A stretch of DNA of 64,000 bases from positions 46,364-110,363 of IMG/VR virus record IMGVR_UViG_3300033064_001806; one strand, given 5' to 3'. Positions 3,116 through 42,159 of this stretch are shown here, in pieces. The notes under the pieces are model-generated. The model saw nothing but the letters and a program-made list of their open reading frames with translations. It did no database searches and was not told the DNA's origin. Position numbers and translations under genes: made by a program. Each line of letters opens with the position of its first letter. Position 1 is the first letter of the stretch. The stretch is from a virus.

Positions 3116-3118
3116 TTT

Positions 3119-3127
3119 GATATTTAT
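3119..3127 (+). promoter_or_regulatory. Candidate late-type box GATATTTAT
   Basis: This is a one-mismatch version of the TATATTTAT box that precedes several structural or capsid-tagged genes in this window. It lies 37 bases before the TTG start at 3164. The promoter role is inferred from recurrence only. Confidence 0.3.
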
Positions 3128-3163
3128 GTAAGTACAATTTATGTAAAAATTGAGAGAGAATTA

Positions 3164-3553
3164 TTGAAAACGCAGTTGGTATGTACTTTTGCTAAAAAAT
3201 ATCAAATAGAAAGAACGCTGGATAATATAAAAGAAAATTTTAATGTATTAAACAACAAAGTTTTCTTATTCCGTTCTTTTGATGTTAAAGATGAATGCAT
3301 CCTTTCTTATAATATTATAATGGATACATATAAAAAGTTTTTACCCAATTCAATCATGGTTCATCAGAAGAAAGAAACAAATACGATATATACGATAAAC
3401 GCTTTAAACGAACTGATTATGAACTTGAATAATGGTGTATTGGATAAAACGTATCCTATTGAATGGGAAAGATATAGAAATTGTGCTTTATTGAAAAATA
3501 AAGACGGTTTCAAGGTTGTTAAAATAATACTAGTTAATATATATAATTTATAA
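3164..3553 (+). CDS. Hypothetical protein (TTG start)
   Basis: This 129-residue protein starts at TTG, preceded by the purine-rich GAGAGAG. No ATG lies near the N-terminus, and conserved-looking sequence (QLVCTFAKKYQIERTLDNIK) begins at once. It is mixed alpha/beta, with 'NKVFLFRSFDVKDECILSYNI' resembling a small phage fold in which a CTF strand is followed by a helix and a CTYN-like strand. Two candidate late-type boxes flank it. Function unknown. Confidence 0.55.
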   Translation: MKTQLVCTFAKKYQIERTLDNIKENFNVLNNKVFLFRSFDVKDECILSYNIIMDTYKKFLPNSIMVHQKKETNTIYTINALNELIMNLNNGVLDKTYPIEWERYRNCALLKNKDGFKVVKIILVNIYNL

Positions 3554-3558
3554 ACAAT

Positions 3559-3567
3559 TATATTTAT
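3559..3567 (+). promoter_or_regulatory. Candidate late-type box TATATTTAT
   Basis: TATATTTAT is followed by AGTATATGTATTA, almost the same downstream sequence as at 45678 (TGGTATATGTATTA). It lies 34 bases before the ATG at 3602. It resembles the host -7 box TATATTTG but with A in place of G, and probably marks a separate promoter class. Confidence 0.4.
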
Positions 3568-3601
3568 AGTATATGTATTACATTATATATTAGAAGAAAA
3601 T

Positions 3602-3919
3602 ATGAAAAAAGAAGAACTTGTAGAAGTAATTACACAGAGAGTACTTGAAACACTCAGCGAACGAATTTCATTATTGGAATCGAGTGGATTTGATATTATA
3701 TTCAGTTCTCTTAGAAAAGAGTTGAATAAAATAACTATACTTCCAGATAATGTAATTGACGCAAGCCAGTATAAAGAACACGAATTAGTCGATGCTTTGA
3801 AGAAAATTGGTTATGAGTATAAAAAACCAATGGGTAATAAACTACATTTTTTTAATAAAAAAACAAGTATAAGTCTTTATCTAATTCAGAAAACTTTGAA
3901 AATAACACTTATGCCATAA
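3602..3919 (+). CDS. Hypothetical protein
   Basis: This 105-residue mostly helical, charged protein begins MKKEELVEVITQRVLETLSE. The amphipathic start ending near L-x-E is weakly like the capsid-targeting tags elsewhere in the window, but it is not counted among them. The C-terminal half has an 'LVDALKKIGYEYKKP' helix and a short beta stretch. It is the first gene after the candidate late-type box at 3559 and is followed 10 bases later by the next gene. No family recognised. Confidence 0.55.
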   Translation: MKKEELVEVITQRVLETLSERISLLESSGFDIIFSSLRKELNKITILPDNVIDASQYKEHELVDALKKIGYEYKKPMGNKLHFFNKKTSISLYLIQKTLKITLMP

Positions 3920-7352: not shown

Positions 7353-8498
7353 ATGGCAAAATCAAAGAGTGACTTATCCGATGAACTCGGTGGAGTTATT
7401 GCAGAAACAATAAATAAAAAGTTCAAAGAACAGCATTTTAAAACCGCTTATTTTCTTGAGGGTGATAGTGATGCACCCACGATTGTAAAAGAATGGGTTG
7501 GTACTGGCTCAACAATTCTTGATTTGGCAATTTCAAATCGTAAGAATGGTGGATTTCCAGTAGGTAGAGTGTGTGAAATAACAGGATTAGAACAATCAGG
7601 TAAATCTCTATTAGCAGCACACGCTCTACTAAACACTCAAAGAAAAGGCGGACTTGCAGTTTACATAGACACAGAAAATGCTATCTCTACTGAATATCTA
7701 ACCGCAATTGGTTTGAACCTTAAAGACATGCTCTACATTCCATTGGATACAATGGAAGATGTGTTTGAAGCGGTTGAGGTTATTATTGAGAAGGTTCGTT
7801 CTTCCGATAAAAATAAATTGGTTACAATAGTTATTGATTCTATTGCCGGTGCATCTACTAAAACAGAGATGGCTGCAGATTTTGATAAAGATGGTTATGC
7901 TACTGCAAAGGCACTTATCATTTCAAAGGCAATGAGAAAAATAACAAATTTAATCGGTAGAGAACGCATTTGTCTTATTATCACAAATCAACTTCGTCAA
8001 AAACTAAATGCACCTGCATTTTCAGACCAATGGACTGCACCCGGTGGTAAAGCACTTCCGTTTCATGCTTCCGTTCGTATTCGTCTCTCTTCAATCGGTT
8101 CAATTAAAGTAAAGGTTGAAGGACATGATGAAATCGTTGGTTCAAGAGTAAAGGCTAAATTAGTAAAGAACAGAGTTGGTCCACCACTACGAGAATGTGA
8201 ATACGAGATTTATTTTGATTCTGGCATAGATGACTACAGTAGTTGGCTTACCACGATGAAAGATTATAACCTTGTTGCACAAGCAGGTGCTTGGTATTCA
8301 TGGACAAACAAAGAAACGGGCGAAGTTATTAAATTTCAATCGAAAGATTTTGTTGAAAAAATTATGAATCATCCAAAATTAAAAGAAATGGTTTATGATG
8401 AAATTGCTGATAAAGTAATTATGAAATACCAACAACTTGACTCTGCTCGTATTGATGAAGTAATTATTTCAAATCAGTCAATTGATACAGACGCATAA
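7353..8498 (+). CDS. uvsX: UvsX/RecA-like recombinase
   Basis: This 381-residue RecA-family ATPase acts in homologous pairing and recombination-dependent replication. Walker A is GLEQSGKS (78-85), Walker B lies in VTIVIDSIAG, and the L1/L2 region contains 'ICLIITNQLRQKL' followed by 'TAPGGKALPFHASVRIRL', a RecA/UvsX signature. The length is close to T4 UvsX (about 390). Its stop overlaps the start of the FEN gene (TAATG), and it directly follows gp32, its usual partner. Confidence 0.92.
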   Translation: MAKSKSDLSDELGGVIAETINKKFKEQHFKTAYFLEGDSDAPTIVKEWVGTGSTILDLAISNRKNGGFPVGRVCEITGLEQSGKSLLAAHALLNTQRKGGLAVYIDTENAISTEYLTAIGLNLKDMLYIPLDTMEDVFEAVEVIIEKVRSSDKNKLVTIVIDSIAGASTKTEMAADFDKDGYATAKALIISKAMRKITNLIGRERICLIITNQLRQKLNAPAFSDQWTAPGGKALPFHASVRIRLSSIGSIKVKVEGHDEIVGSRVKAKLVKNRVGPPLRECEYEIYFDSGIDDYSSWLTTMKDYNLVAQAGAWYSWTNKETGEVIKFQSKDFVEKIMNHPKLKEMVYDEIADKVIMKYQQLDSARIDEVIISNQSIDTDA

Positions 8499-9541
8499 TG
8501 AACAAGTATCAGAAACTACTTCAAGAAATAGAAACTGAGAAAGAACTACAAGGTAATTTACACCGCGATAGTAAGGTTTTGATTGTAGATGGGATGAACT
8601 TATTTATAAGAACATTCTCGGCTATTCCTTCATTAAATGAAGATGGTCAACATATTGGTGGTCTATCTGGCTTTCTCAAATCACTTGCTGCAACAATTCG
8701 TATGACGAATCCAACACGAGTCGTGATTGTCTTTGATGGGAAGGGTGGTTCACTAAGAAGAAAGAAAATATATTCAAATTACAAGGAAGGTAGAGCAAAT
8801 AAATCTAAATTAAATAGGGTTGCGGGTTTTGAGAATCTTGAGGATGAACAAAAGTCTATGAGGTTTCAACTGTTTCGTCTGTTTACTTATTTACAGAATT
8901 TGCCATTAACCATTATATCGATGGATAATATTGAGGCTGATGATGTTATTGCCTACCTTTCTTTTTATTTGAAAGAAAAATCTGTTATATTATCGAATGA
9001 TAGAGATTTTTTACAGTTGGTATCAGAACAAGTTTCTGTGTATTTACCAACGAAAAAAAAGTTATATACACCAGAAAATCTATTAGAAGAAACTGGAGTA
9101 TGGTGTGAGAATTTTATTTTATTCAAAGCATTATTAGGCGATAAGAGTGATAACATTAAAGGTATTAGTGGGTTTGGTGAAAAAACAATATTGAAACACT
9201 TCCCAATACTTTCAGAAAAAAGAAAAATTGATTTAGATATGTTCGTAGAATTTTGTAAATTGTATGATAATAAATCTAAAGCAATCAATGAACTCAAAAA
9301 TAACATTAGTGTATTAGAAACTAACTATAAGCTTATGCAATTACACGATGTTGATATTTCACAAAGTTTTAAATCATCTATACGTGGCATGGTCGATGGT
9401 GAAATCCAAAAACTAAATAAAATTGAATTGGACAAATTATTTATAGTAGATAAATTATACTCTGCTATACCTAATTTTGAACACTGGTTACAAAGAAATT
9501 TTGGAAATCTAAATACGATTCGGAATATATATGCAGGATAA
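8498..9541 (+). CDS. 5'-3' exonuclease / flap endonuclease (T4 RNase H-like)
   Basis: This 347-residue PIN/FEN-family nuclease removes RNA primers and flaps. The acidic metal-binding residues appear in order: VLIVDGMNLF, VVIVFDGKGG, DNIEADDVIAYL, ILSNDRDFLQL, and the helix-hairpin-helix GDKSDNIKGISGFGEKTI. The basic 'RRKKIYSNYKEGRA' matches the arch. The first 25 residues are an extra helical extension. Translation is coupled to uvsX, and the stop overlaps the helicase start by 11 bases. Confidence 0.9.
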   Translation: MNKYQKLLQEIETEKELQGNLHRDSKVLIVDGMNLFIRTFSAIPSLNEDGQHIGGLSGFLKSLAATIRMTNPTRVVIVFDGKGGSLRRKKIYSNYKEGRANKSKLNRVAGFENLEDEQKSMRFQLFRLFTYLQNLPLTIISMDNIEADDVIAYLSFYLKEKSVILSNDRDFLQLVSEQVSVYLPTKKKLYTPENLLEETGVWCENFILFKALLGDKSDNIKGISGFGEKTILKHFPILSEKRKIDLDMFVEFCKLYDNKSKAINELKNNISVLETNYKLMQLHDVDISQSFKSSIRGMVDGEIQKLNKIELDKLFIVDKLYSAIPNFEHWLQRNFGNLNTIRNIYAG

Positions 9542-10883
9542 TTTATCCCAATACGGTCAAACGTTTCAAACAAAAGTAATTATTTCACTATTGAAAGATA
9601 GAGAATTCTTACAACAAGTGTCAGACCTTATAGATCCAACTTATTTTGAATCACAGGCAAACTCTTGGTTAGTTGAGAAGATTATTTCTTATTATGAGAA
9701 ATATAAAAGCCCACCAACATCAGATGTATTCAAATCTGAATTACTAGTGGTAGAAGATAAAATATTGAAAACAACGGTAGTTGATGCACTTAAACAAGTA
9801 AAAAAGTACACAGACAATTCAGATGATGAGTATGTTAAAAATACTGTACTTGAATTTTGTAAAAATCAAAAGATGAAAATAGCGATATTAGAATCAGTTG
9901 ATTTGTTAAGAAGTGGTAAGTATGATTTGATTAAAAAGAAAATTGATAATGCACTTAAAGCAGGAGCGGATAAAGATATTGGACATGAATATAAAATTGA
10001 TGTAATATCTCGCTATGCAGAAGGTGCGAGAGTGTGTGTTCCAACTGGTTGGAATATTATAAATGACATTATGTCAGGTGGGTTAGCAGAAGGAGAACTT
10101 GGTGTACTAGTTGCACCAGCAGGTGGTGGTAAGTCATGGGGCTTAGTGAGTGTTGCTGCAAATGCAGTTAAAGCAGGTAAACGTGTTATTTATTATACAC
10201 TTGAATTGAATCAACATTATGTTGCAAGAAGATTCGATGCTTACTTCACAAAGATTGCTTTTCAAAACTTAGGCGAAGAACACGCACAAGAAAAAATTAA
10301 ATCGGCAATGGAGAACTTAAAAGGTGAATTGATTGTTAAATATTATCCAACAAAAACTCCATCGATTAACACACTCACTTCACATATCGAGAAATGTATT
10401 AGTCAAGGCAAACCACCCGATTTGATTATTGTTGATTACGCAGACTTGATTAAACCCGCAAAAGCAGGTGATAAGAGATTAGAGTTAAACGATATTTACG
10501 AAGACCTTAGAGGAATTGCAGGTTTATATCAACTTCCAATTTGGACTGCTTCACAAGCAAATCGTTCTTCATTGGAAGACGATGTTATCGAAGGTGGTAA
10601 GGTTTCAGAATCATATAATAAAATGATGATTGCTGACTTTGTAATGTCACTATCAAGGAAGTTAGATGACAAAGTTGGTGGCACAGGTAGATGGCATATT
10701 ATTAAAAATAGGTTTGGTCCAGATGGCATGACGTTTCCAAGTAAGGTAAACACAATGACTGGCCATATAGAAATATACGAACCTAACTCCGATATGGGTA
10801 AAACTGTAACGGTTACTATGAAAGGTGAAAAGAATGTAAAGAAAGCACTTTCACAGAAATTCAAAGAATTAGAAGGATTCTAA
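9531..10883 (+). CDS. Replicative DNA helicase, DnaB/gp41-like
   Basis: This 450-residue RecA-fold hexameric helicase has an N-terminal helical domain (1-150), Walker A APAGGGKS (195-202), the family 'GKRVIYYTLELNQHYVARRFDAYF' stretch, Walker B PDLIIVDYADLIKP and the Q/N switch 'LPIWTASQANRSS'. It unwinds the fork ahead of the family B polymerase and should recruit a primase that is not in this window. It is the last gene of the gp32 operon; a strong terminator follows at 10987. Confidence 0.92.
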   Translation: MQDNLSQYGQTFQTKVIISLLKDREFLQQVSDLIDPTYFESQANSWLVEKIISYYEKYKSPPTSDVFKSELLVVEDKILKTTVVDALKQVKKYTDNSDDEYVKNTVLEFCKNQKMKIAILESVDLLRSGKYDLIKKKIDNALKAGADKDIGHEYKIDVISRYAEGARVCVPTGWNIINDIMSGGLAEGELGVLVAPAGGGKSWGLVSVAANAVKAGKRVIYYTLELNQHYVARRFDAYFTKIAFQNLGEEHAQEKIKSAMENLKGELIVKYYPTKTPSINTLTSHIEKCISQGKPPDLIIVDYADLIKPAKAGDKRLELNDIYEDLRGIAGLYQLPIWTASQANRSSLEDDVIEGGKVSESYNKMMIADFVMSLSRKLDDKVGGTGRWHIIKNRFGPDGMTFPSKVNTMTGHIEIYEPNSDMGKTVTVTMKGEKNVKKALSQKFKELEGF

Positions 10884-17342: not shown

Positions 17343-17361
17343 CCGTGACAATTTGTCACGG
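17343..17361 (+). promoter_or_regulatory. 5'-leader hairpin
   Basis: A perfect 8-bp stem CCGTGACA/TGTCACGG with a 3-base loop is followed by TTTCACT. Because it sits downstream of the promoter at 17314 and upstream of thioredoxin, it would form at the 5' end of the mRNA. It could act as a stabiliser, an attenuator or a leftover terminator; the T run is weak. Confidence 0.55.
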
Positions 17362-17395
17362 TTTCACTACCATCTATTTTCATTTAAGGACGAAC

Positions 17396-17653
17396 ATGAT
17401 TACCATTAAACATTACACAGCCTCTTGGTGTATGCCATGTAAACAACTTAAACCCATTATGAGTGAAATCTTACTTAAACGTCCAAATGTCAATTATAAA
17501 CTTATTGATGTGGACAATAATCCAGATGAAGCATCGATGCATGGTGTTCGTGGAGTTCCTACTGTAATATTTATGAAAGATGGGGTTGAAGTAAATAGAA
17601 TTATTGGTTTGGTTTCTAAAACAAATTACGAAATGGCAATTGATAATTTATAA
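17396..17653 (+). CDS. Thioredoxin
   Basis: I chose the ATG at 17396, which has AAGGA at good spacing; the open frame extends upstream but runs into the promoter leader. The 85-residue protein starts MITIKHYTASWCMPC, with the redox site W11-C-M-P-C15, the cis-Pro loop GVRGVPTVIFM and the typical beta3-alpha2 'NYKLIDVDNNPDEA'. It is a short phage-type thioredoxin that probably re-reduces the class II ribonucleotide reductase. First gene of the candidate nucleotide-modification cassette. Confidence 0.92.
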   Translation: MITIKHYTASWCMPCKQLKPIMSEILLKRPNVNYKLIDVDNNPDEASMHGVRGVPTVIFMKDGVEVNRIIGLVSKTNYEMAIDNL

Positions 17654-17662: not shown

Positions 17663-18361
17663 ATGACAGTTATAGAAGCGGTTTCTCCCGGTGACGCTTG
17701 GGTAAAAGTTTCTAAGCATTTGTTAGAAAAAGGGGAAAAAGTCGGTGAATTAATTGAAGAATTAAATGTAATGATGGAAATTACTCAATTTGAAAGTGAT
17801 GATTGGTTTGATTCACACTTCAGAGAAATAATGGGTGATGATAGAATTGATTTTGCTTCTTCGGTTACTTTCGTAGAACCTAAACATAAAAAACCAATTA
17901 ACGATTTCTTTCAAGTAGAAGAAGGATTAGAATATCAGTTCATTAAAGACCATTGGCATCAGTCCTATTGGGGAAGAATGATTAGTTGGCAAGGTACGTT
18001 TAATCAAGTTGAAAACGTTATTAAGATTTTGAAACAAGGTAAAGCAGTTAAACGTTGTGAGTTAATTATATTTGACCCATCACGTGATTCACGCAATCCG
18101 TATTCTCAACCTTGTATGTTAATGATTGACTTGAAGCCACGGAATGGTAAGTTGTATTTAACTTCTGTTTTACGTTCCAATAGAGTTTCTAAAAGTGGTT
18201 ACGCTGATTATTCTGCTTTAGTTAGTATGGGTAAGTTTTTAGCAAAAGAAAGTGATTTGGAATTAGGAAAGGTTAGTGTATTAGCATGTTCCTGCCACAT
18301 CGGTAAGATGAACAATGAACTTAAAAAAACAAAAGAATTATTAAACATACTCAATAAATAA
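17663..18361 (+). CDS. Thymidylate synthase-fold enzyme with dCMP-type active site
   Basis: This 232-residue protein preserves the TS core. YWGRM (102-106) matches the TS 'YG..WR' region; 'NQVENVIKILKQG..VKRCELIIFDPS' matches the 'dQ...i..Lk..p.sRR......p' stretch. The nucleophile is in QPC with C151. Exactly 20 residues later comes R171-S, as in E. coli TS (C146 to R166). Eleven residues after that is D182, where TS has Asn177. Asp at this site is the hallmark of dCMP-specific members such as T4 dCMP hydroxymethylase. 'SCHIG' (H212) fits the later His. It lacks some conserved TS residues, so it may make 5-substituted dCMP rather than dTMP. It precedes an amidotransferase and a PLP-type protein. 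Confidence 0.7.
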   Translation: MTVIEAVSPGDAWVKVSKHLLEKGEKVGELIEELNVMMEITQFESDDWFDSHFREIMGDDRIDFASSVTFVEPKHKKPINDFFQVEEGLEYQFIKDHWHQSYWGRMISWQGTFNQVENVIKILKQGKAVKRCELIIFDPSRDSRNPYSQPCMLMIDLKPRNGKLYLTSVLRSNRVSKSGYADYSALVSMGKFLAKESDLELGKVSVLACSCHIGKMNNELKKTKELLNILNK

Positions 18362-18362
18362 T

Positions 18363-19868
18363 ATGTGCGGTATAATAGCAACCGTCGGTTATACTAAAAC
18401 TGACGTTGATAATATGTTGGAAACCATCGCTCACCGTGGTAAAGATAACCGTGGTATAAAAGAATTTTCTTGGGGCGATAGAAAAGTTATACTTGGACAT
18501 AATCGTCTTGCCATTAACGATACTTCTGCCGCAGGCAATCAACCGATGGAATGGGAAGGTATTCACTTAGTAGTTAATGGCGAAATATGGAATTATCCTG
18601 AACTAAGAAAAGAATACGAAGAAAGGGGATATAAGTTTAAATCAAATTCAGATTCAGAACTTATACTGTTTGTGTACAAAGAACAAGAATTGAAAAGACT
18701 TAACGGTATGTTTTCTTTTGTTATTTGGGATAACGGAAAGCTAATTCTTTCACGTGATTGGGTTGGTAAGTTACCACTCTATATTTTTAACAATAACACT
18801 TACATTATTGCAAGTGAAATAAAATCTATTGTTAAACAATTACCGAACGCTGACATTAAGTTTGTACCGAAAAATTCTTTGATTGAAATTGATCTGAGTA
18901 CCGATAAAATAATAGTTCATAAAGATTACTATTTTAACTTTTCAAACGAAACAACTTCACCCGAAACACATGAAGAATGCAGTACAACAACGTACAATCT
19001 ACTGGAGAACGCGGTAAGTAAAAGATTGTTATCTGATGTACCTATTGCAACTTCGTTGTCTGGTGGGATTGATTCCGCTGTTATAACGTATTTGTTATCT
19101 ACTAAAATACCAAACTTAAAAGCCTATACAATTGCTTTTGATGAAGATTCACCTGACTTGAAATATGCAAGAATAGTTGCAAAACATTTAGGTGTTCAAT
19201 TGGTTGAAGTTTTAGTTCCAAGAAACGTGGAACTCTTGAAGCAAAGATTTTTAGAATCAATACGAGTTATTGAATATCCATCTACAGTTCAAATGCAAGT
19301 TGGTATTCTACAATCGTTTATAGCAGAACAAATGGCAAAGGATGGAATAAAAGTTGCGTTTAGTGGTGAAGGTTCTGATGAAGCGTATGGTTCTTATGGA
19401 ATGATACGGATGTTTAGTAAGAAGCCAGACTGGTCGGATATTAGAAAGAAATTATTTGAAAAGCAATACTATGGTAATTTATTACGCGGTAATACTGTTT
19501 TCATGTATTACGGAACAATAGAATTACGTTGCCCGTTTTTCGATATTGATTTTTTAGATTACACTACTAACTTAACGAACGAATTTTTATCTGATAAATC
19601 TCAATGGAAACTTCCACTCGCAGATGCATTTAGACCGTACTTGCCTAAAGAAGTTATTGAACAAGAGAAACGTGCTTTTCAAAAAGGTACAAACTTCAAA
19701 GGATATATTGAAGATATAATTCTAAATGATAAAGAAATAAACTTTCGTAATAGAAAAAAGATGCTTCATGTAATTGGTGATAACTTTGAAAAGATTCATG
19801 GATTTTCACATAAGAAAATGAAGGGCGAACTTATTGGTAATAATAGTGGAATATTCAAATGGATTTAA
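18363..19868 (+). CDS. Glutamine-dependent asparagine synthase-like amidotransferase
   Basis: This 501-residue class II glutamine amidotransferase has a free N-terminal Cys2 (MCGIIATVGY), HRGKD and NGEIWNY in the glutaminase domain, and a synthetase domain with the PPi loop SLSGGIDSA (about 231-239) and FSGEGSDE. It has all the catalytic parts of AsnB. Cellular AsnB makes asparagine from aspartate. Next to a dCMP-type TS homologue and a PLP-fold protein in a virus it may instead amidate an acidic group on a nucleotide or DNA base; this is inference. It starts 1 base after the preceding stop and overlaps the next gene by 10 bases. Confidence 0.85.
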   Translation: MCGIIATVGYTKTDVDNMLETIAHRGKDNRGIKEFSWGDRKVILGHNRLAINDTSAAGNQPMEWEGIHLVVNGEIWNYPELRKEYEERGYKFKSNSDSELILFVYKEQELKRLNGMFSFVIWDNGKLILSRDWVGKLPLYIFNNNTYIIASEIKSIVKQLPNADIKFVPKNSLIEIDLSTDKIIVHKDYYFNFSNETTSPETHEECSTTTYNLLENAVSKRLLSDVPIATSLSGGIDSAVITYLLSTKIPNLKAYTIAFDEDSPDLKYARIVAKHLGVQLVEVLVPRNVELLKQRFLESIRVIEYPSTVQMQVGILQSFIAEQMAKDGIKVAFSGEGSDEAYGSYGMIRMFSKKPDWSDIRKKLFEKQYYGNLLRGNTVFMYYGTIELRCPFFDIDFLDYTTNLTNEFLSDKSQWKLPLADAFRPYLPKEVIEQEKRAFQKGTNFKGYIEDIILNDKEINFRNRKKMLHVIGDNFEKIHGFSHKKMKGELIGNNSGIFKWI

Positions 19869-20698
19869 TACAAACACCGATTGAGGAATACGAACTCAAA
19901 GGAAAGAAAGTTTGGGTTAAACGTGATGATTTAATAGGTGATGGGATAAATTATCCAAGGTGGGCAAAGATAGAAGGAATTAAACAAATTCTAAGAAGCC
20001 CTGCTGTTGATAAAAACAAACCATTAACTCACCTTTCAGTATACGGTAGTTGGACAGGCTGGGTTTTATCTAAACTTTGTAAAGAAGAAGGTATAGAATT
20101 TATTTCTTCTTATCCAGATACAAAGAAATTCCCACCGAGTTTAATTGAAAGAGTAATGGCAAATGGTGGAAAATTAAATCCACTTAAACCAAACATAATG
20201 GCAATACTAAACAATCGTGTAAAGAAACAGGCAATAGAAAACGGGTGGCAAATGTTACCATATGCGTTCAATCATCCAATGTACATTGCACACATGGGTA
20301 GTAGAATGAAAGAAGTATTGGCGGATAATGATTTTGACCACTTGGTTGTTTCAATGGGAAGTGGTGTAACGTGTTCTGGACTTATAAATTCATTCTTACA
20401 TTATACAGATTGGCGAGATGTTGTTAGTAACAGAAGGCAAGTTCATGGTATTACAATGTCATCGATAAAATCAACAAGAAAAATATTAGAACAAAATGGA
20501 GCAGGTGGTAATAATAATATTCACATTTATAAATCACCATTTGCTTTTGACGATATGATGTTGGATTATTCAGTACCGTTTGATTGTAATGAGTTTTGGG
20601 ATAAAAAAATGTGGTTCTGGTTAGAAGAAAACATTGGGAAATTAGACGGAAAAGTATTATTTTGGAATATTGGCGGTTCATATTTACAATCGATTTAA
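19859..20698 (+). CDS. PLP fold-type II protein, ACC deaminase/D-cysteine desulfhydrase-like
   Basis: This 279-residue protein resembles the tryptophan-synthase-beta fold family. It has 'VWVKRDDLIGDGINYPRWAKIEGI' (family V.KRDDL.G....GNK.RKLE), 'LSVYGSWTGWVLSKLC' (family GG..SNH..A.A) and the glycine loop 'VVSMGSGVTCSGLINSF' that would hold the PLP phosphate. By alignment, the canonical Schiff-base Lys of GNK falls on Arg (YPR); the nearest Lys is three residues later (AKIE). So it may use an altered lysine or be a non-PLP binding protein. It overlaps the amidotransferase gene by 10 bases, which suggests a shared pathway. Confidence 0.65.
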   Translation: MDLIQTPIEEYELKGKKVWVKRDDLIGDGINYPRWAKIEGIKQILRSPAVDKNKPLTHLSVYGSWTGWVLSKLCKEEGIEFISSYPDTKKFPPSLIERVMANGGKLNPLKPNIMAILNNRVKKQAIENGWQMLPYAFNHPMYIAHMGSRMKEVLADNDFDHLVVSMGSGVTCSGLINSFLHYTDWRDVVSNRRQVHGITMSSIKSTRKILEQNGAGGNNNIHIYKSPFAFDDMMLDYSVPFDCNEFWDKKMWFWLEENIGKLDGKVLFWNIGGSYLQSI

Positions 20699-20720
20699 TA
20701 TAAATAAAGGAGTTATGAAA

Positions 20721-21227
20721 ATGGCACAGACGTGGCAAAGAAGATGGGATGAGAGTTTGGCTGAGGAATCATTTAAGAACAGATTAAATTTACCTATTAC
20801 GTATGTAAAGTTAAGTCCAGACGCAGTTAAACCAGAATACTCACAAGACGGTGATGCTGGTATGGATTTAACAGCGACTTCATTTAGAGTTACAGATACT
20901 TTTATGGAATTTGGAACTGGTATTGCGGTACAGATTCCAGCGAATCATGTTGGACTTTTATTTCCAAGAAGTTCAATTACAAAAGCAGCAGCAGGAGTTT
21001 CATTGAAAAATTCTGTTGGTGTTATAGATTCAAATTATCGTGGTGAAATCCTTGTGAGATTTGAATTGCCTTATTCAGGAGCGGTGGGTGGAACTATTCC
21101 AGTTGTTGGCGATAGAGTTGCACAATTGGTTATTATTCCGTATCCAAGAGTAAAATTCGTAGAAGTAGAGAAACTATCCGATACAAACCGTGGCCAAGGT
21201 GGGTTTGGTTCAACGGATAAACAATAA
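20721..21227 (+). CDS. dut: dUTP pyrophosphatase
   Basis: I chose the ATG at 20721 because AAGGAG ends 8 bases upstream; the ATG at 20715 is only 2 bases from it. All five trimeric dUTPase motifs are present: DAGMDLTA, PRSSITK, GVIDSNYRGEI, GDRVAQLVI and the C-terminal RGQGGFGST. The enzyme hydrolyses dUTP to dUMP, keeping uracil out of DNA. It ends the cassette that starts with thioredoxin. It is a plain dUTPase with no dCTPase partner seen in the window, so exclusion of unmodified dCTP, if needed, would rely on another gene. Confidence 0.93.
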   Translation: MAQTWQRRWDESLAEESFKNRLNLPITYVKLSPDAVKPEYSQDGDAGMDLTATSFRVTDTFMEFGTGIAVQIPANHVGLLFPRSSITKAAAGVSLKNSVGVIDSNYRGEILVRFELPYSGAVGGTIPVVGDRVAQLVIIPYPRVKFVEVEKLSDTNRGQGGFGSTDKQ

Positions 21228-21274: not shown

Positions 21275-21904
21275 ATGTCAAAACTAAGTAACATATTAAA
21301 AGAAAGTGGTTTATCGAGATTGGTTTACCACATGGAAATGCACGATTGCGGTACAATTACAGCCTTCCGCTCTAAAGAAGGGTGTGGTTTACCTGAAGAT
21401 TTACCGTATGCTCTACAAGATAACAAAAAAAGAAATGCACAATTAAAAGCAAAACTTGAAATGATGGGGTATGGAACAACAGCAGTTAAAGGTGCTTACA
21501 TTGAAAACTACGGAACACCTGAAGCAATTGAAGTACGTGAAGATGTTTTCTTTGTTGTGGATTTACAAGATAAAGGAAAACTTGAAGCAGATTTAAGAAG
21601 ATTGGGTGAAGAGTATATGCAAGATTCTATTTTGCTTATACCAAGGGGCGGTGATGGTTCTATTCTAATCGGTACAAACCAGTGTTCAGATTATCCAGGA
21701 TATGGAAGAACAATGCAATTCAATGATAGACAAATGGGCAAAGGTGGGCAATTCATGACAAAAGTAAAAGGCAGACCTTTTATATTTGAATCTGACTTGC
21801 TTGAACAAATTGGAAACCATAACTATTATAGTGTTGCAAACAACATGGGTAAGTGGGCAATGAAAACTATTGCAAATAAAAATTGGAAAGATATACAAAT
21901 TTAA
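21275..21904 (+). CDS. Tagged protein of unknown function (HDCGTITAFR family-like)
   Basis: This 209-residue soluble protein begins MSKLSNILKESGL, a capsid-targeting-like peptide (I-L-K-E). The body contains 'YHMEMHDCGTITAFR', a region with 'AQLKAKLEMMGYG' and 'EDVFFVVDL', and 'ILLIPRGGDGSILIGTNQCSDYPG'. It reads as a compact enzyme-like alpha/beta fold, but I do not recognise the family. Together with the tag and the candidate late-type box upstream, the best guess is a packaged protein. Confidence 0.6.
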   Translation: MSKLSNILKESGLSRLVYHMEMHDCGTITAFRSKEGCGLPEDLPYALQDNKKRNAQLKAKLEMMGYGTTAVKGAYIENYGTPEAIEVREDVFFVVDLQDKGKLEADLRRLGEEYMQDSILLIPRGGDGSILIGTNQCSDYPGYGRTMQFNDRQMGKGGQFMTKVKGRPFIFESDLLEQIGNHNYYSVANNMGKWAMKTIANKNWKDIQI

Positions 21905-25195: not shown

Positions 25196-25915
25196 ATGGA
25201 AAAATCAAAGTTATTAAACTTCATTAGTAAATATCACTTGGGTAAATTAGTTCAATCTGTTGCTTGGAATGCAAACGGTGGATTAGCAACTCGTTTTATT
25301 TCTGATGACAAATGCGTAGTAGGAGAAGTTAAGTTAAAAAGTTTCAGCGGTCAAGTAGCAAAGTTTGGTGTGTATGATACAAACTTACTTACAAGTCTTC
25401 TTGGTGTTCTTGGTAACACTATTGAATTTAAAATCAATGGTGCAGACGATAAAGCATTCGCTTTAACATTAAGTGATAAATCCACAACTGTTAATTATAT
25501 GTTAGCTGATTTGGCAGTTATTCCACCGGCACCGGAGTTGAAAGAACTTCCACCATTTGAATTAGAAATGTCAATTACAAAAGATTTTATTGATAAATTT
25601 ATCAAAGCTAAATCTGCTTTATCTGATATTGAGAAGTTTACTATTCTTAAAAACGGTAAGACTAATAAATGGCAAATTGTAATTGGTTATGCTAACATAA
25701 ACTCCAATAGAATTTCAATTGATATTGATTGTATTTGTGAACAAGATTTTGAACCAATTTCTTTTTCAGCAAAGTATTTCAAAGAAATTCTATCAGCAAA
25801 TAAAGATTTGAACGGTGGTTCAATGAAAGTTTCCTCACAAGGTTTAGCAAAAGTTGAATTTGATATTGACGATTTTGAATCAAGATATTTCTTAGTAAAA
25901 TTGGAAAACAATTAA
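25196..25915 (+). CDS. DNA polymerase sliding clamp (gp45-like)
   Basis: This 239-residue protein has the length and beta-alpha-beta pattern of T4-type trimeric clamps (MEKSKLLNFISKYHLGKLVQ, 'GVYDTNLLTSLLGVLGNTIEF', 'KYFKEILSANKDLNGGSMKV', 'GLAKVEFDIDDFESRYFLV'). It tethers the polymerase. It lies after the polymerase gene and has its own promoter. In T4-like phages it also acts in late transcription, which fits the idea of phage-specific late promoters here. Its stop overlaps the methyltransferase start (TAATG). Confidence 0.85.
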   Translation: MEKSKLLNFISKYHLGKLVQSVAWNANGGLATRFISDDKCVVGEVKLKSFSGQVAKFGVYDTNLLTSLLGVLGNTIEFKINGADDKAFALTLSDKSTTVNYMLADLAVIPPAPELKELPPFELEMSITKDFIDKFIKAKSALSDIEKFTILKNGKTNKWQIVIGYANINSNRISIDIDCICEQDFEPISFSAKYFKEILSANKDLNGGSMKVSSQGLAKVEFDIDDFESRYFLVKLENN

Positions 25916-27549
25916 TGAAAAAGTATTTCTATGAAAAAAGTGATATTCTGTCCTGGCCATCAAACATAACGTATGGTGAACTGGTTACATTTGACGATAA
26001 CAGGTTTTATGAATGGGCAGAAGATTTACGAATGAGGATTCTAACTGATTGGGATAACAATGGGAAACCGCCAGTCGTTGGTAGAACTGAGGAAGAGATT
26101 AATCAATCATTCTCGAAACTCCGTCAGTTCAACGCTTCATCTATTTTTCATAGTGTGGAAGACGGCAATGACTCTGATATGATTGGAGTCATTGCTAATT
26201 TCACAAAAATTGGTTCTGCTGCAAATCAATTCTTTCCAACAATGCTAAAAACTAAAATTGCATCTGGCATGGGAAGTGATTCTGGTAAATCGATTTACGA
26301 TTATTTTACAGACTCTATGAAAGAAACATTTCATCATATTATGAAGAGAAGTGTTTACAACGATTCTATGTATTTGTACAGTAAGTCTTTATCTTCAAAT
26401 CAAGTAAAGAATCCTTACTTCAAAGAAGGTGAAACTCTTCGTGATTTCTTCATGGCGTATAAAAATGGTGATGGAAGATTCGATGGACAAGGTGTTCGTA
26501 TTTCTAAAATATCATGCACTCTACAAACTCAAAGTAAAAAATACAAAAAGTATTTAACTATAAAGGTAGATGAGATTAGACAGTTCTTAGCGGAAGGTTT
26601 GATTGATGACTTCATGTTATTTACTTTGGGTAGTCCAGCGGATTTAACTGATACATTTAATATACAAAAAGAAGGTTCGGAACCGAGGGCAAATGTTTAT
26701 ATTGTTCGTGTTTACGAAAAGAATATAAAACTATTTCCAAGTGCAATACAAGTATTTCGTATGTCATTTTGTCAACCGGCTGTAAACTTTCCACCTATGA
26801 CCGCAAAGTTTATTTATGAACACTTTACAAAACATATACCTGCAAGTGAAACAGTAACGGTATATGATCCAAGTTCTGGTTGGGGTGGAAGGATACTCGG
26901 TGCTATGTCTGTTGGCCGCCCAATGCATTATGTTGGAACAGACCCAAATACAGATAACTTTATTGATGAATTAGGAATAAGTCGTTATGAATACCTTGCA
27001 GACTTTTTTCTAAAATCAATAGGCGAGCGAGGCACAAATATATCTTCAAACTTCTTTGTTACAAATGAAAATCATACATACGAACTTTTTCAAGATGGTT
27101 CAGAAACAATTCAATTCAATCCTAAATTTCAAAAGTATAAAGGTAAGTTAGATTTTGTTTTTACTTCACCACCATACTTTAATAGAGAAATGTATTCCGA
27201 TGATGCAACTCAATCGTATAAAGCACATAGTGAGTATGCGGATTGGCGTGATAACTTTTTACGCCCAACATTAGAAACTGCGGTTGCTTATTTGAAATCA
27301 GACCGTTACCTTTGTTGGAATATAGCTGATATTAGAATTTCAACTAACAAAATAGTTCACCTTGAAAAAGATTCAATTGATATATTAGAATCATTGGGAA
27401 TGGAGTATGTAGGTAAATTTGGAATGGCAATGGGTAGAATGATTGGTAACTCTGACCAAGAAAAATTGGCTGAAAGAACTTCTAATAAAGTTTTTCATAA
27501 AGGTCAATGGTGGAAACAAGAACCTATTTTTATTTTCCGGAAACCATAA
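25915..27549 (+). CDS. SPPY-type DNA methyltransferase (probable N4-cytosine/N6-adenine)
   Basis: This 544-residue SAM-dependent amino-methyltransferase has motif I DPSSGWGGRILGA (about 318-330) and catalytic motif IV FTSPPYFNRE (about 416-425). SPPY is typical of N4-cytosine enzymes and some N6-adenine ones. A 300-residue N-terminal region precedes the catalytic part and could recognise DNA. It shares the 'KLRQFNASSIF' segment and overall order with the next gene, its shorter paralogue. No restriction partner is adjacent, so protection or modification of phage DNA is likely. Confidence 0.75.
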   Translation: MKKYFYEKSDILSWPSNITYGELVTFDDNRFYEWAEDLRMRILTDWDNNGKPPVVGRTEEEINQSFSKLRQFNASSIFHSVEDGNDSDMIGVIANFTKIGSAANQFFPTMLKTKIASGMGSDSGKSIYDYFTDSMKETFHHIMKRSVYNDSMYLYSKSLSSNQVKNPYFKEGETLRDFFMAYKNGDGRFDGQGVRISKISCTLQTQSKKYKKYLTIKVDEIRQFLAEGLIDDFMLFTLGSPADLTDTFNIQKEGSEPRANVYIVRVYEKNIKLFPSAIQVFRMSFCQPAVNFPPMTAKFIYEHFTKHIPASETVTVYDPSSGWGGRILGAMSVGRPMHYVGTDPNTDNFIDELGISRYEYLADFFLKSIGERGTNISSNFFVTNENHTYELFQDGSETIQFNPKFQKYKGKLDFVFTSPPYFNREMYSDDATQSYKAHSEYADWRDNFLRPTLETAVAYLKSDRYLCWNIADIRISTNKIVHLEKDSIDILESLGMEYVGKFGMAMGRMIGNSDQEKLAERTSNKVFHKGQWWKQEPIFIFRKP

Positions 27550-27552: not shown

Positions 27553-28632
27553 ATGAGACCTAACGGCGATAGTTTAAGTAAATTTTTTGATGTTGATCAG
27601 CTAGAAGTTCGTTTGTGGAAAGAAACAGGTGAATACTTTGCAGGTAAGAGAGAATTGGATGATACAATAGATTGTATCTTTCAGTATTACCGCAAACATG
27701 GTTATCCGTATATGAAAATCACCGAACAAGAAAAACATGAACACATGAGAAAACTTCAACAATTTAATTATGATTCTATTTTCAAAGACGGTGATATAAT
27801 TCAAACTATGAACGGACTTCGTTTGGCATGGTCTTACTTTCCACATGGAATGGAAATCAAGTGTGGTAATTCTAAAATGTCTCCTATGGATAATTTTTTA
27901 AATGACCAAACATTCAAAATGACTATTCGTAAATGTTTGAAGTGGTTGTGGAAACATTTGGGTGGTTCTTTTCAAGAGAATCGTCTTCGTCAATCACTTA
28001 AAATATATTCCGGTGTTCAAGGTGTTTCTAATTTCAGACCAACTGCTGCAGGTGCTATTTATAAAAGATTTGGTGGTGATGGTGTGATGTGGGATATGTC
28101 TTGTGGTTGGGGTGGTAGATTAGTCGGTGCACTTGCTTCACCGTATATCAAAACTTATATCGGAACAGAACCATCTACCAAAACATTTGAAGGTCTATGT
28201 AAACTTCGTGATGACTTTGCGTATCTTGGGAAAGATATTCAATTGAATATGATGGGTTCAGAAGATTATCTACCAGAAAAAGAAAGTTTAGATTTATGTT
28301 TCACTTCACCTCCGTATTTTGATACAGAAAAGTATGCAGATGAAGAAACTCAATCGTATAATAAGTTTTCAACTCGTGATACTTGGGGTTCTGGTTTCTT
28401 ACAAGAAACATTTAAGAATTGTTTTCATGGATTAAAACCGCATGGTTATATGTTGATAAACATTTCAAATACACCAAAGTATAAAGACTTGGAAGAAATG
28501 ACAATTCATTATGCAAAAGAAGTGGGTTTCATATATGAAGGTAAAATTAATCTAATTCTATCATCAGTTATGGGTGCTGGGTATAAAAGAGAACCTGCAT
28601 TTATTTTTATAAAACCCTTGGCAGTCTCATAA
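27553..28632 (+). CDS. SPPY-type DNA methyltransferase, second copy
   Basis: This 359-residue protein has motif I DMSCGWGGRLVGA (about 181-193) and motif IV FTSPPYFDTE (about 250-259), then 'YADEETQSY', matching 'YSDDATQSY' in the preceding gene. 'KLQQFNYDSIF' also matches. It is a tandem, diverged paralogue with a shorter N-terminal region, separated by 3 bases. The pair may recognise different sites or act as a heterodimer. Target base and sequence cannot be read from the gene. Confidence 0.75.
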   Translation: MRPNGDSLSKFFDVDQLEVRLWKETGEYFAGKRELDDTIDCIFQYYRKHGYPYMKITEQEKHEHMRKLQQFNYDSIFKDGDIIQTMNGLRLAWSYFPHGMEIKCGNSKMSPMDNFLNDQTFKMTIRKCLKWLWKHLGGSFQENRLRQSLKIYSGVQGVSNFRPTAAGAIYKRFGGDGVMWDMSCGWGGRLVGALASPYIKTYIGTEPSTKTFEGLCKLRDDFAYLGKDIQLNMMGSEDYLPEKESLDLCFTSPPYFDTEKYADEETQSYNKFSTRDTWGSGFLQETFKNCFHGLKPHGYMLINISNTPKYKDLEEMTIHYAKEVGFIYEGKINLILSSVMGAGYKREPAFIFIKPLAVS

Positions 28633-29901: not shown

Positions 29902-30357
29902 ATGTCTGCTAAGAATATATTCGACCATTTAAAAGGTGTTACACTTCGTAAGACAAAGTGGGAAGACTTATCTGAAGAAGATAAGAAGAGTTGGAGTAAT
30001 TATATGATTTCACGTTTCTTCTCTATGGAGCCGGAACTTGTGGAAGTTATAAATGAATTTCAAAAATACTCGAACGGAATATTATCATCAGAAGATTATT
30101 ATAAACTATTATCGGATACTCTACCAAAGCATTCGTTCTTTCTAAAATATGTTAAAGCTAAGAATAGAGTTAACATAGAACCAGAAATGATTACTTTATT
30201 TTGTAACCATTTTCAACTTGGAAAGAGCGAAGTGTTTGAGTATATTCGTTTTCTGAAAACTACTAATCCAACTGAACTTACTACTATACTAAAGAAGTAC
30301 GGTACTAAAGAAGACGCAATAAAAGATTTTGAAAAGAAATTGAAGACTATAAAATGA
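29902..30357 (+). CDS. Clamp loader small subunit (gp62-like)
   Basis: This 151-residue helical protein starts MSAKNIFDHLKGVTLRKTKW, the start pattern of gp62-like proteins in T4-related marine phages. It contains 'YMISRFFSMEPELVEVINEFQ' and 'LPKHSFFLKYVKAK'. T4 gp62 is about 187 residues. It lies 279 bases downstream of gp44, as in other T4-like clamp-loader operons, and should form the loader with it. Its stop is close to the next start. Confidence 0.7.
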   Translation: MSAKNIFDHLKGVTLRKTKWEDLSEEDKKSWSNYMISRFFSMEPELVEVINEFQKYSNGILSSEDYYKLLSDTLPKHSFFLKYVKAKNRVNIEPEMITLFCNHFQLGKSEVFEYIRFLKTTNPTELTTILKKYGTKEDAIKDFEKKLKTIK

Positions 30358-30365
30358 GGAATAAA

Positions 30366-30737
30366 ATGTCAATTAAAGAAATAGACTTAGGTAGAAAACA
30401 AAATAGTGTTGTTTCTGAAATGGAAGAAAAGTTTCCTACTATGACTAAAGAATTTAAACGTATTCAACAAGAACAGTACGAACTATTCTGTGCAAAACAA
30501 AAAAACTATGGTCCAGATAATATATCAATGGGTACAACATTAGAAAGAGAGGAAGACAGAAAACTTTCTTTACAAGGTTTATTCTTTCGTATTAACGATA
30601 AAATAAACAGATACAAACAAATGATTATGTTTGGTTCACAAGATGCAGTTGGTGAATCCTTATATGACACATTCAAAGATATTTCTGTTTATGGAATTAT
30701 CGCACAACTTGTTCAATCTGGTAAATGGGGGAAATAA
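30366..30737 (+). CDS. DUF1599-like (nucleotide-modification-associated) protein
   Basis: The start at 30366 is preceded by AGGA; the in-frame GTG/ATG codons further up overlap that site. The 123-residue protein carries 'LFCAKQKNYGPDNI' and 'GLFFRINDKINRYKQMI', then 'VGESLYDTFKDISVYGIIAQLV', which match the DUF1599 family, a group that has been linked by context to phage nucleotide modification. The Asp/Glu/Lys-rich helices recall MazG-like nucleotide-binding folds. It lies directly before SAM synthetase. Biochemical role unproven. Confidence 0.65.
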   Translation: MSIKEIDLGRKQNSVVSEMEEKFPTMTKEFKRIQQEQYELFCAKQKNYGPDNISMGTTLEREEDRKLSLQGLFFRINDKINRYKQMIMFGSQDAVGESLYDTFKDISVYGIIAQLVQSGKWGK

Positions 30738-31894
30738 TGAGTACATATATATGGACTTCGGAATATGTAAGTGAAGGTCATCCTGATAAAATAGCTGACC
30801 AAATTTCAGATGCAATTCTTGATTGGTATTTACAAAGAGATCCAGACGCAAAGGTTGCGTGTGAGGTTATGGTAAAGGATAGTGATGTTTATGTTTCTGG
30901 TGAAATAAAATCAACGGTTGATAAAGATAAAAGAACTTTAGAATTATCACTAACTAGATTAATTAAAGGACTTATAAAAGACATTGGCTATACAATAGAA
31001 GAATCACCATTCTTCAATTCAGAGTATTGCCGTATTCACTTTAATATATCAACTCAATCATCAGAGATTAATCAAGCGGTTGATAAAGGTGATGTTGTTA
31101 CAGCAGGAGACCAAGGTATTATGTTTGGTTACGCTACTCGTGAAACTCCAACATATATGCCGATAGCAATTTACTTGGCTAAAAAACTAATTGACGTTGC
31201 AACAGATATTAGAAAAAAAGGTAGTAAATTAGGTCATGTACAGAAACTTCGTCCCGATATGAAGAGTCAAGTGTCTGTTACGTATAAAGATAATAAAGCA
31301 GTAGGTATTCATTCTGTTGTATTTTCAACTTGTCATTCTGAAATGATTTCACTTGAACAACTTAGAAAGTATTTCCATTCTGATATTTTACCAACGGTAT
31401 TAGAAAGTATTCCAGAAGAACTTGCGGAACTATTTACAGATAAAACTGTTTACCATATAAATCCAGCAGGTGAATGGAATGTTGGTGGTCCAGTTTCTGA
31501 TTGTGGATTAACAGGTAGAAAGATTGTAGTTGATCAATACGGTGCTGATTGTGAAATTGGCGGTGGCGCTTTCTCTGGCAAAGACCCAAGTAAAGTTGAT
31601 AGAAGTGCAGCGTATATGGCTCGTCATATCGCTATAACAACACTTCATGAAAATGAAGAAGCAAATAAAATTAAAGTTCAATTGGCATATGCAATCGGTG
31701 AAGAGTTTCCTGTTTCATATCGTATATTTGATCCAACAACTTGCAAAGAATATGGACTTGGTAAATTTACTCACGCTGATTTAACTCCAAGTAGAATCAT
31801 TGAAAGATTAAAATTAAAAACTCCTATTTATTTACAAACTGCCAAGTATGGTCATTTTGGAAATAAAGATTTAGAATGGGAGAAAATTGGATGA
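30737..31894 (+). CDS. metK: S-adenosylmethionine synthetase
   Basis: This 385-residue enzyme makes SAM from methionine and ATP. Conserved MetK motifs are present: EYVSEGHPDKIADQISDAIL, TAGDQGIMFGYA (family GAGDQG), GGGAFSGKDPSKVDRSAAY and DCGLTGRKI. Length is normal (E. coli 384). ATG overlaps the previous stop (TAATG); GGGGA lies upstream. A viral metK supplies SAM for the two adjacent-region methyltransferases, or as an aminocarboxypropyl or other group donor for base modification. Confidence 0.93.
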   Translation: MSTYIWTSEYVSEGHPDKIADQISDAILDWYLQRDPDAKVACEVMVKDSDVYVSGEIKSTVDKDKRTLELSLTRLIKGLIKDIGYTIEESPFFNSEYCRIHFNISTQSSEINQAVDKGDVVTAGDQGIMFGYATRETPTYMPIAIYLAKKLIDVATDIRKKGSKLGHVQKLRPDMKSQVSVTYKDNKAVGIHSVVFSTCHSEMISLEQLRKYFHSDILPTVLESIPEELAELFTDKTVYHINPAGEWNVGGPVSDCGLTGRKIVVDQYGADCEIGGGAFSGKDPSKVDRSAAYMARHIAITTLHENEEANKIKVQLAYAIGEEFPVSYRIFDPTTCKEYGLGKFTHADLTPSRIIERLKLKTPIYLQTAKYGHFGNKDLEWEKIG

Positions 31895-33555: not shown

Positions 33556-34986
33556 ATGGCAAAGAAAAAGATACTATTATTATCAGATGATTTAAGATTA
33601 ACATCTGGAATTGCAACTGTGTCTCGTGATTTAGTTCTCGGCACAGTAAGAGATTTTGATTGGGTGCAAGTTGGTGCAGCAATTAATCATCCAGATAAAG
33701 GTAAAATATTTGATTTATCACAAGATGCTAAAGAACGAAGCGGTGATGATACGGCAAATATAAAAATATATTGTAACGATGGATATGGTGATCCATTTCT
33801 TATTCGTAGAATAATGGATGCGGAAAAACCAGACGCTATATTACATTTTACAGACCCAAGATTTTGGGGATGGTTATATAACATGGAACATGAGATTCGT
33901 AAAAAAATGCCGTTGATGTATTTGAATATATGGGACGGTGCAGGATTGGTTGGTGATACAGCAACAGACCCTATGTGGAATAAAGAAGCGTATGCTAGTT
34001 GTGATTTATTACTGGCAATTTCAAAACAAACATACGGTATTAATTACAGAGTGTTGAAAAAATTCGGTGAAGAAGTTCCAAAGCATAGAATAACTTATAT
34101 TCCGCATGGAATAGATACTGATATATTTTATCCTATAAATGAAGCATCAACCGATAATCAATGGAATGAATTACAAGAAGAACGTAATAAACTTCGTAAT
34201 GGCAATGATGATAAGTTCGTTGTTATGTGGAACAACCGAAACATTCACCGTAAGCATCCAGGTGATGTTGTTCTTGCTTATAAACATTTCTGTCAACTTG
34301 TAGATAAAAACGGTGGGAATGCTGCAGAAGATTGTGTATTACTAATGCACACCCAACCCATGGATCCAAATGGAACAGACTTAGTTGCTTTAGTTGGTGA
34401 ACTTTGTGGTGAGTATACTGTTTTATTTGACGATAAAATAGTTCCATCTACAAAATTAAATGTTCTATATAATGCAGTTGATGTTGTTCTTAACATGGCT
34501 TCAAATGAAGGTTTTGGTTTAGGAACAGCAGAAGCACTTGCAGCAGGTACTCCGATTGTAGTAAACGTTACCGGTGGGTTACAAGACCAATGTGGTTTTA
34601 TAAATCCAACAACTGGTAAATACTTTACAGAAGATGATTATTTGAAAATACATACACTCCATAGAAAAGATGAATGGGGACATTTAGAACATGGTGAGTG
34701 GGTCAAACCAGTTTGGCCATCAAACATTTCATTACAAGGTTCAGTACCAACTCCTTATATTTTTGATGATAGAGCAGATTTTAGAGATATTGGAAAAGCG
34801 TTGTATGATTGGTACATAACTTCAAAGGAAGAAAGAACATTTGCAGGATTAAAGGGAAGAGAATTTATTATGAATGTAGAAGTTGGCATGTCAAGAAATA
34901 ATATGTGTGAGCGAATTTCAACAAGTATCAACGATACATTTGAAAATTTCGTACCACGAAAAAGTTTTGAATTACATTTAGTGTGA
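33556..34986 (+). CDS. GT-B glycosyltransferase (family 4-like)
   Basis: This 476-residue protein starts MAKKKILLLSDDLRLTSGIATVSR, a typical GT-B N-terminal Rossmann start. It has 'ITYIPHGIDTDIFYP' and the donor-binding EGFGLGTAEALAAGTPIVV (E-x7-E) in the C-terminal domain. It transfers a nucleotide-sugar-donated sugar; acceptor unknown. It is the first gene of a 12-kb carbohydrate cluster, with 7 bases before the second glycosyltransferase. It could glycosylate virion protein, modified DNA bases or host surface polysaccharide. Confidence 0.82.
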   Translation: MAKKKILLLSDDLRLTSGIATVSRDLVLGTVRDFDWVQVGAAINHPDKGKIFDLSQDAKERSGDDTANIKIYCNDGYGDPFLIRRIMDAEKPDAILHFTDPRFWGWLYNMEHEIRKKMPLMYLNIWDGAGLVGDTATDPMWNKEAYASCDLLLAISKQTYGINYRVLKKFGEEVPKHRITYIPHGIDTDIFYPINEASTDNQWNELQEERNKLRNGNDDKFVVMWNNRNIHRKHPGDVVLAYKHFCQLVDKNGGNAAEDCVLLMHTQPMDPNGTDLVALVGELCGEYTVLFDDKIVPSTKLNVLYNAVDVVLNMASNEGFGLGTAEALAAGTPIVVNVTGGLQDQCGFINPTTGKYFTEDDYLKIHTLHRKDEWGHLEHGEWVKPVWPSNISLQGSVPTPYIFDDRADFRDIGKALYDWYITSKEERTFAGLKGREFIMNVEVGMSRNNMCERISTSINDTFENFVPRKSFELHLV

Positions 34987-34993
34987 GGAAATA

Positions 34994-36915: not shown

Positions 36916-36923
36916 GAATTGTT

Positions 36924-38335: not shown

Positions 38336-38337
38336 CA

Positions 38338-38904: not shown

Positions 38905-38914
38905 AATAAAATAT

Positions 38915-39661: not shown

Positions 39662-39662
39662 T

Positions 39663-42157: not shown

Positions 42158-42159
42158 TT

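Follow-up and report, generated by a model that had tools for sequence, protein, structure and literature searches.

A modular phage gene cassette with a cytosine-type thymidylate synthase homologue is a candidate source of hypermodified cytosine

Three adjoining genes in a 64,000-nucleotide stretch of viral DNA (bases 46364-110363 of the 110-kb IMG/VR record IMGVR_UViG_3300033064_001806, hereafter the window) encode a thymidylate synthase (TS)-like protein, an AsnB-like amide ligase and a pyridoxal phosphate (PLP) enzyme of fold type II (Table 1). The ligase gene starts 1 base past the TS stop codon and overlaps the PLP gene by 10 bases, and genes for thioredoxin and dUTPase flank the three, so the open reading frames (ORFs) bear out the layout described in a first-pass annotation of this DNA. 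The TS-like protein matches Thymidylat_synt (3.8e-6), the ligase matches GATase_7 (1e-32) and Asn_synthase (2e-42), and the PLP protein matches PALP at 2e-5, which is under the curated cut-off. No DNA-level relatives were found among phage records.

In the TS-like protein, Cys151 is followed 20 residues later by Arg171, and Arg171 is followed 11 residues later by Asp182. These distances equal those of C146, R166 and N177 in ordinary TS; two genuine ThyA proteins encoded by relatives align in this register, which the first-pass annotation had proposed from the Escherichia coli enzyme (EcTS). Among 48 intact, distinct homologues, which reach down to ~35% identity and leave out one copy fused to the ligase (see below), C151, R171, S172, D182, H212, K130 and Y102 are invariant. 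Because D182, C151, R171, S172 and H212 are identical in 48/48 homologues, the pattern is not a product of chance. All 48 therefore carry the Cys and cytosine Asp of T4 gp42 (C148 and D179), and none carries Asn177, the mark of dUMP-specific ThyA. Asp is the cytosine determinant in T4 dCMP hydroxymethylase (D179) and in MilA (D186) (PMC6400193, PMC5175136); MilA, BcmA and the T4 enzyme are all defined by it (PMC5175136), and Asp177 marks modified-cytosine contigs in the MetaGPA study (PMC8670742). The earlier assignment of a cytosine-type TS homologue is thus upheld, with MilA, AfhB and TS homologues of the hydroxymethylcytosine (hmC) type as the nearest annotated or solved relatives. Moreover, at least four jumbo phage relatives encode a separate full-length ThyA, so the TS-like protein is not the dTMP synthase of those relatives. 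Together with Asp at position 177, this led us to reject a plain dTMP synthase, an outcome that by the first-pass annotation would refute its reading. Bacterial genomes yielded a single weak, partial match, which is uninformative.

The cofactor side of the active site is altered. At the position of EcTS Asp169, the pterin-side Asp (D171 in T4), 46 of the 48 TS-like sequences carry Arg (R174) and the other two carry Ala, with Asp in none. This Asp is kept in every folate-type comparator (44RR gp42, AB1I1M, ATCCB, nattely, Sixama, M6 and ThyA). Trp or Phe takes the place of Tyr94, and Gly, Arg or Thr that of Tyr209, while EcTS Glu58 (T4 E60) has no clear equivalent in a region that is modelled with low confidence and is poorly alignable. 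AfhB-type proteins likewise lack Asp169, having Asn there. In a maximum-likelihood tree of the TS superfamily, the cassette proteins form a single clade (support 100/100) apart from the hmC-type and T4-like hydroxymethylases, from ThyA and from the AfhB type, with which they do not group.

Different comparisons favor different relatives. The best PDB sequence matches are the CMP hydroxymethylase MilA (1.3e-5) and then AfhB (0.009), which the PDB entries 9iqc and 9iqu give as a flavin-dependent dCMP hydroxylase from Escherichia phage HY126. An AlphaFold2 (AF2) model of moderate confidence (pLDDT 78), of the kind the first-pass annotation had called for, has AfhB with bound dCMP as its top Foldseek match in the PDB (E 7e-10), and hhalign places the TS-like profile nearer to the hmC-type TS of phage ATCCB, whose gene adjoins a beta-glucosyltransferase gene, than to AfhB. 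AfhB shares the TS fold, the Cys and Asp for dCMP and the loss of the folate Asp; however, identity is only ~23% over 117 residues, Arg rather than Asn stands at position 169, and none of the trio genes is of the glycosyl type. MilA and T4 dCMP hydroxymethylase share the cytosine Asp, the Cys nucleophile and the equivalents of Arg166 and His207, whereas the TS-like protein lacks the folate Asp, Tyr94 and Tyr209 and is shorter. Because AfhB leads by structure, MilA by sequence and ATCCB by profile, we call the protein a cytosine-type enzyme and leave its second substrate unnamed; judging from its residues, the protein is unlikely to use the customary folate in that role or as a cofactor.

The first-pass annotation had likened the protein to T4 dCMP hydroxymethylase, a comparison that neither the cofactor side nor the tree supports. 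The name is doubtful because the folate-binding Asp is lost and the best structural match is AfhB. A pathway could still be built on it, in which a folate-dependent dCMP hydroxymethylase makes hmC, an amino acid is added (for example by PLP-dependent beta-replacement, giving an O-seryl group) and the AsnB-like ligase amidates its carboxylate. Asp182 and Cys151 match those of the T4 enzyme, the profile is closer to the ATCCB protein (5e-9) than to AfhB (4e-5), and the model of the PLP protein fits the fold-II family of beta-elimination and replacement enzymes. With Arg or Ala for the folate Asp, Tyr94 and Tyr209 both replaced and no aligned equivalent of Glu58, however, we regard this alternative as unlikely.

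Equally tentative is a bolder proposal, that the TS-like protein is a new pyrimidine C5-substituting enzyme. It would retain the Cys and Asp machinery for dCMP and hold, by Arg174, a carboxylate-bearing electrophile in place of methylene-folate, so that a carboxylate handle would be built directly on cytosine and then amidated by an AsnB/CmoY-type ligase. Such an electrophile could be, for instance, a small acid with a keto or aldehyde group, or else an aminoacrylate derived from PLP. If true, this would be a third route to carboxylate-handled DNA, free of both folate and CmoX.

The AsnB-like ligase has every glutaminase and synthetase residue that we checked invariant, with the exception of position 441. 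Its best phage relative is gp124 of Streptomyces phage TurkishDelight (32% identity over 91%), which is flanked by a C5-cytosine methylase (PF00145) and a protein detected by the CmoA model, in the gene order of the CmoA/CmoX/CmoY system. In that system SpCmoY couples glycine to the 5-carboxymethylcytosine of DNA; for another cluster of ligases, which possess a glutaminase domain, ammonia is the proposed substrate (PMC12783734). At six loci the place of the AsnB gene is taken by a 308-aa PP-loop protein without a glutaminase domain. This short ligase resembles SpCmoY of Synechococcus phage S-B43 (pairwise E 2e-11, and 2e-4 when the phage collection is searched) and also has a relative in Staphylococcus phage F1, inside a run of methyltransferase, ligase and cytosine-methylase genes. 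With an intact synthetase domain and sequence kin among the ligases of CmoA/CmoX cassettes, the cassette ligases qualify by sequence as relatives of the CmoY type.

The PLP protein points to a different known pathway. All of its INPHARED matches at E<=1e-3 are in M6-like and allied phages, and the thymidine hypermodification cassette of phages SN1 and M6 includes this PLP enzyme (PMC9476957). Its lysine K37 is present in 70/70 sequences and it has in common with M6 the FWN of a C-terminal FWNIG signature, placing it in the M6 gp52 family. An alignment in the style of ACC-deaminase had raised the suspicion that the PLP lysine was lost; this was ruled out once M6 was aligned, as K37 is invariant. 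In an AF2 model (pLDDT 88) the nearest folds are D-cysteine desulfhydrase, threonine deaminase and ACC-deaminase.

Scans for the TS-like pattern, the PLP alignment and the AsnB alignment recovered 46, 80 and 68 viral loci, respectively, and the survey of co-occurrence suggested by the first-pass annotation counted over 40 distinct viral loci with the trio. When all components were mapped by tblastn and classes were counted as distinct by sequence, a single locus type with exchangeable parts emerged. TS, AsnB and PLP occur together in 41 distinct loci, and a short ligase replaces AsnB in 5. A radical S-adenosylmethionine (radical SAM, rSAM) enzyme accompanies TS and AsnB without PLP in 3 and with PLP in 2, whereas 17 distinct loci have no TS and combine a diverged ligase (AsnB′) with a 2-hydroxyacid dehydrogenase and PLP. 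Other loci miss at least one component, mostly because the contig ends, and among PLP loci with 3.5 kb on each side only one (L173) lacks a ligase with either TS or the dehydrogenase. The radical SAM versions are arranged as AsnB-rSAM-TS (L244), TS-AsnB-x-rSAM (L245/L258 and L259), HD-rSAM-TS-AsnB-PLP (L030) and MT1-TS-AsnB-rSAM-PLP-HD (L165). In the last, the radical SAM ORF (2447-3865) opens by repeating the N-terminus of the PLP protein (MVLIQTPLEKYTLK), which suggests insertion at the AsnB/PLP junction.

The TS-free variant (L174 4539-9088, L189 2911-6810 and L167) consists of PLP, a D-2-hydroxyacid dehydrogenase and the diverged AsnB (33-35%), and at L174 it overlaps a methylase-like gene with an SPPYF motif. 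TS and dehydrogenase were found together in no locus, a PF00303 search gave no match in six dehydrogenase-type contigs (which may be fragments), and INPHARED held no relative of the cassette dehydrogenase. A tree built from 66 PLP sequences requires at least 5 changes for the dehydrogenase label and at least 2 for the short-ligase label, so that partners around this one PLP lineage were swapped at least 7 times. Because partner labels change repeatedly across this tree, the PLP enzyme is the constant part of the cassette. We rejected a fixed three-gene pathway in view of the variants with a dehydrogenase, a short ligase or radical SAM. The first-pass proposal of a hypermodification trio is supported in part, by the wide co-occurrence and by the modification settings in which kin of each member are found, but a set pathway is not, since any of TS, ligase and PLP can be exchanged and TS is missing altogether from one variant. 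Such exchange of parts is what might be expected under arms-race pressure.

Two loci carry unusual forms of the TS-like gene. On the L043 contig, which is shared with two other loci, TS and AsnB are fused in a 710-aa ORF (8001-10133) without the AsnB catalytic Cys2; RNR (ribonucleotide reductase) and PolB are also in pieces there, pointing to an in-frame deletion or an assembly fault. In L238 (4547-6001) a 484-aa ORF joins TS in frame to a stretch that by eye resembles a GIY-YIG endonuclease, possibly a homing element.

Our searches for the known handle-makers were negative. ADDT (PF18724) and 5-hydroxymethyldeoxyuridine (5-hmdU) kinase (PF18723) were not found in the relatives searched, C5-methylase (PF00145) was not found in seven genomes, and CmoA (TIGR00740) was not found in eight. 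Because the ADDT search detects M6 and the CmoA search detects TurkishDelight and S-B43, both methods work. As far as these partly fragmentary records go, the cassette handle appears to be made by neither described route. Like the CmoA-CmoX-CmoY system of S-B43, which makes 5-carboxymethylcytosine (PMC12783734), the cassette couples an AsnB-type amide ligase, in GATase-bearing and short forms, to what would be an enzyme acting at cytosine C5. Unlike that system, it has a TS-fold enzyme or a 2-hydroxyacid dehydrogenase where CmoA and CmoX would stand, and it adds a PLP or radical SAM enzyme. With the M6/SN1 thymidine cassette (PMC9476957) it shares a related PLP enzyme, a TS-family protein, radical SAM enzymes in some variants and a position near a DNA polymerase gene. 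The M6 TS, in contrast, has the uracil-type Asn at 177, the M6 radical SAM enzyme gives no BLAST match to that of the cassette, and the M6 partners ADDT and 5-hmdU kinase are those missing above.

Taken together, the trio probably represents one form of a modular cassette with which phages produce hypermodified cytosine for their DNA. This reading is backed by the conservation of catalytic residues, co-occurrence, operon overlap, the separate ThyA, the swapping of modules and the failure to find known handle-makers in the genomes searched. The product would most likely be a cytosine decorated with an amino-acid-like group whose acid end is capped as an amide, a chemistry that we infer from the enzymes. 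As its residues suggest, the TS-like protein would bind dCMP through D182, activate C5 through C151 and attach a C5 substituent. The AsnB-like ligase would then adenylate a carboxylate on this substituent and form the amide with glutamine-derived ammonia, the reaction proposed for GATase-bearing ligases of the CmoY type, while the short ligase would join another amine. The PLP enzyme would make or trim the amino-acid part of the side chain, a task for which some relatives would use a radical SAM enzyme instead or in addition. Hypermodification of phage DNA is itself known; this combination of relatives from two known pathways was found described nowhere in the open-access papers that we searched.

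Several points weigh against this reading. The dehydrogenase variant has no detected TS, although its PLP enzymes (L167, L189 and L191) are 84-89% identical to those of TS loci, and the PLP substrate would therefore not depend on TS. M6 gp52 is reportedly a decarboxylase, and decarboxylation would take away the group on which the amide ligase depends, except where the two enzymes target different carboxylates or operate in different variants. We could not confidently assign a kinase for modified dCMP, although one jumbo relative (G002) encodes an AAA_28 protein and a MazG domain. All cassette contigs are from uncultivated viruses, with the modified base predicted from genes, and the final acceptor may be a free nucleotide rather than DNA.

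A further alternative, which we consider improbable, is that the product is no DNA base but a small soluble nucleotide or nucleoside, like the one that MilA forms on the way to mildiomycin, or else the amide of an amino acid, serving counter-defence. MilA is the closest solved sequence relative, K130 is MilA-like and a 2-hydroxyacid dehydrogenase takes the place of TS in one variant. Nevertheless, Ser172 is of the deoxyribose type where MilA has Ala, relatives of the ligase and the PLP enzyme reside in DNA-modification cassettes, and the block sits among replication genes. Ordinary metabolism, with dTMP synthase, asparagine synthetase and a D-cysteine desulfhydrase-like enzyme as auxiliary metabolic genes, is very improbable, for although the ligase scores above the NCBIfam asparagine synthase cut-off (292 versus 267 bits) and the PLP model resembles D-cysteine desulfhydrase, relatives have their own ThyA, Asp177 is found throughout, the ligase can give way to a CmoY-like enzyme that lacks the glutaminase domain and the PLP kin are of the M6 type.

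The surroundings lend further support to hypermodification. The cassette block lies with genes for RNR, thioredoxin, PolB and the clamp, and between jumbo relatives TS and AsnB are unusually conserved, at 72-79% identity versus 56% for PolB. The thioredoxin is probably a partner of RNR, its membership in the cassette is putative, and dUTPase adjoins the trio in the nearest relatives only. Two paralogous DNA-methylase-like proteins with the SPPYF motif are encoded downstream. The first, whose orthologue immediately precedes TS in a marine group (MT1-TS-AsnB-PLP-HD), is likely a cassette companion, and the second is a possible one. Such genes lie within 3 kb in 87/94 loci, a count in which loci from several scans recur. 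We did not adopt them as a defining component because their relatives are ordinary in Twort-like phages and a PDB search found none. An Nmad1-like protein, whose presence also counts as supporting context, is 63-70% identical in two jumbo relatives.

The window also encodes a SAM synthetase and a SAM-lyase-like protein (PF23780, 1e-10), which could jointly alter the SAM pool of the host. In G002 (L088 1784-2953), the TS gene adjoins a gene whose product combines an ABC-type ATPase with a GNAT acetyltransferase domain (weak Pfam matches); the same fusion is directly upstream of TS in L207 and L208, possibly as a further tailoring enzyme. By eye, a large island can be recognized in which glycosyltransferase-like and aminotransferase genes lie with related sugar genes; past ~38100 it is mostly absent from jumbo relatives.

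Table 1. Trio genes and other features of the window
Feature	Position	Strand	Basis and remarks
TS-like protein (TS fold, cytosine type; C151, R171, S172, D182; R174 versus Asp169 of folate-dependent TS)	17663..18361	+	232-aa ORF; Pfam/NCBIfam; invariance; tree and residue table; AF2 and Foldseek
AsnB-like glutamine-dependent amide ligase (Cys2, SGGIDS PP-loop and GEGSDE intact)	18363..19868	+	501-aa ORF; family matches; kin of GATase-bearing CmoY-type ligase of TurkishDelight
PLP fold-II enzyme (K37), M6 gp52 family	19859..20698	+	279-aa ORF; 29-32% identity to Pseudomonas phage M6 gp52
Thioredoxin	17345..17653	+	ORF and family match; neighbour of trio
dUTPase	20718..21227 (ORF 20670-21227)	+	family match
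SAM-lyase-like protein	21275-21904		PF23780
DNA-methylase-like protein (SPPYF motif)	25915..27549	+	orthologue upstream of TS in marine group
Paralogous SPPYF DNA-methylase-like protein	27553..28632	+	family match
Nmad1-like protein	30354..30737	+	Pfam 'Nucleotide modification associated domain 1', weak, under cut-off
SAM synthetase	30725-31894		
Sugar-gene island	33556-45667		by eye

These findings suggest that large uncultivated phages carry a hitherto unrecorded group of cytosine hypermodifications, built from interchangeable parts for base activation (TS or dehydrogenase), amide ligation (using ammonia or an amine) and tailoring (PLP or radical SAM). The cassette would link two phage pathways that have been described separately, those of carboxymethylcytosine amides and of M6-type amino-acid thymidines. 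Moreover, it offers concrete enzymes to test and new tools for putting amides on DNA bases.

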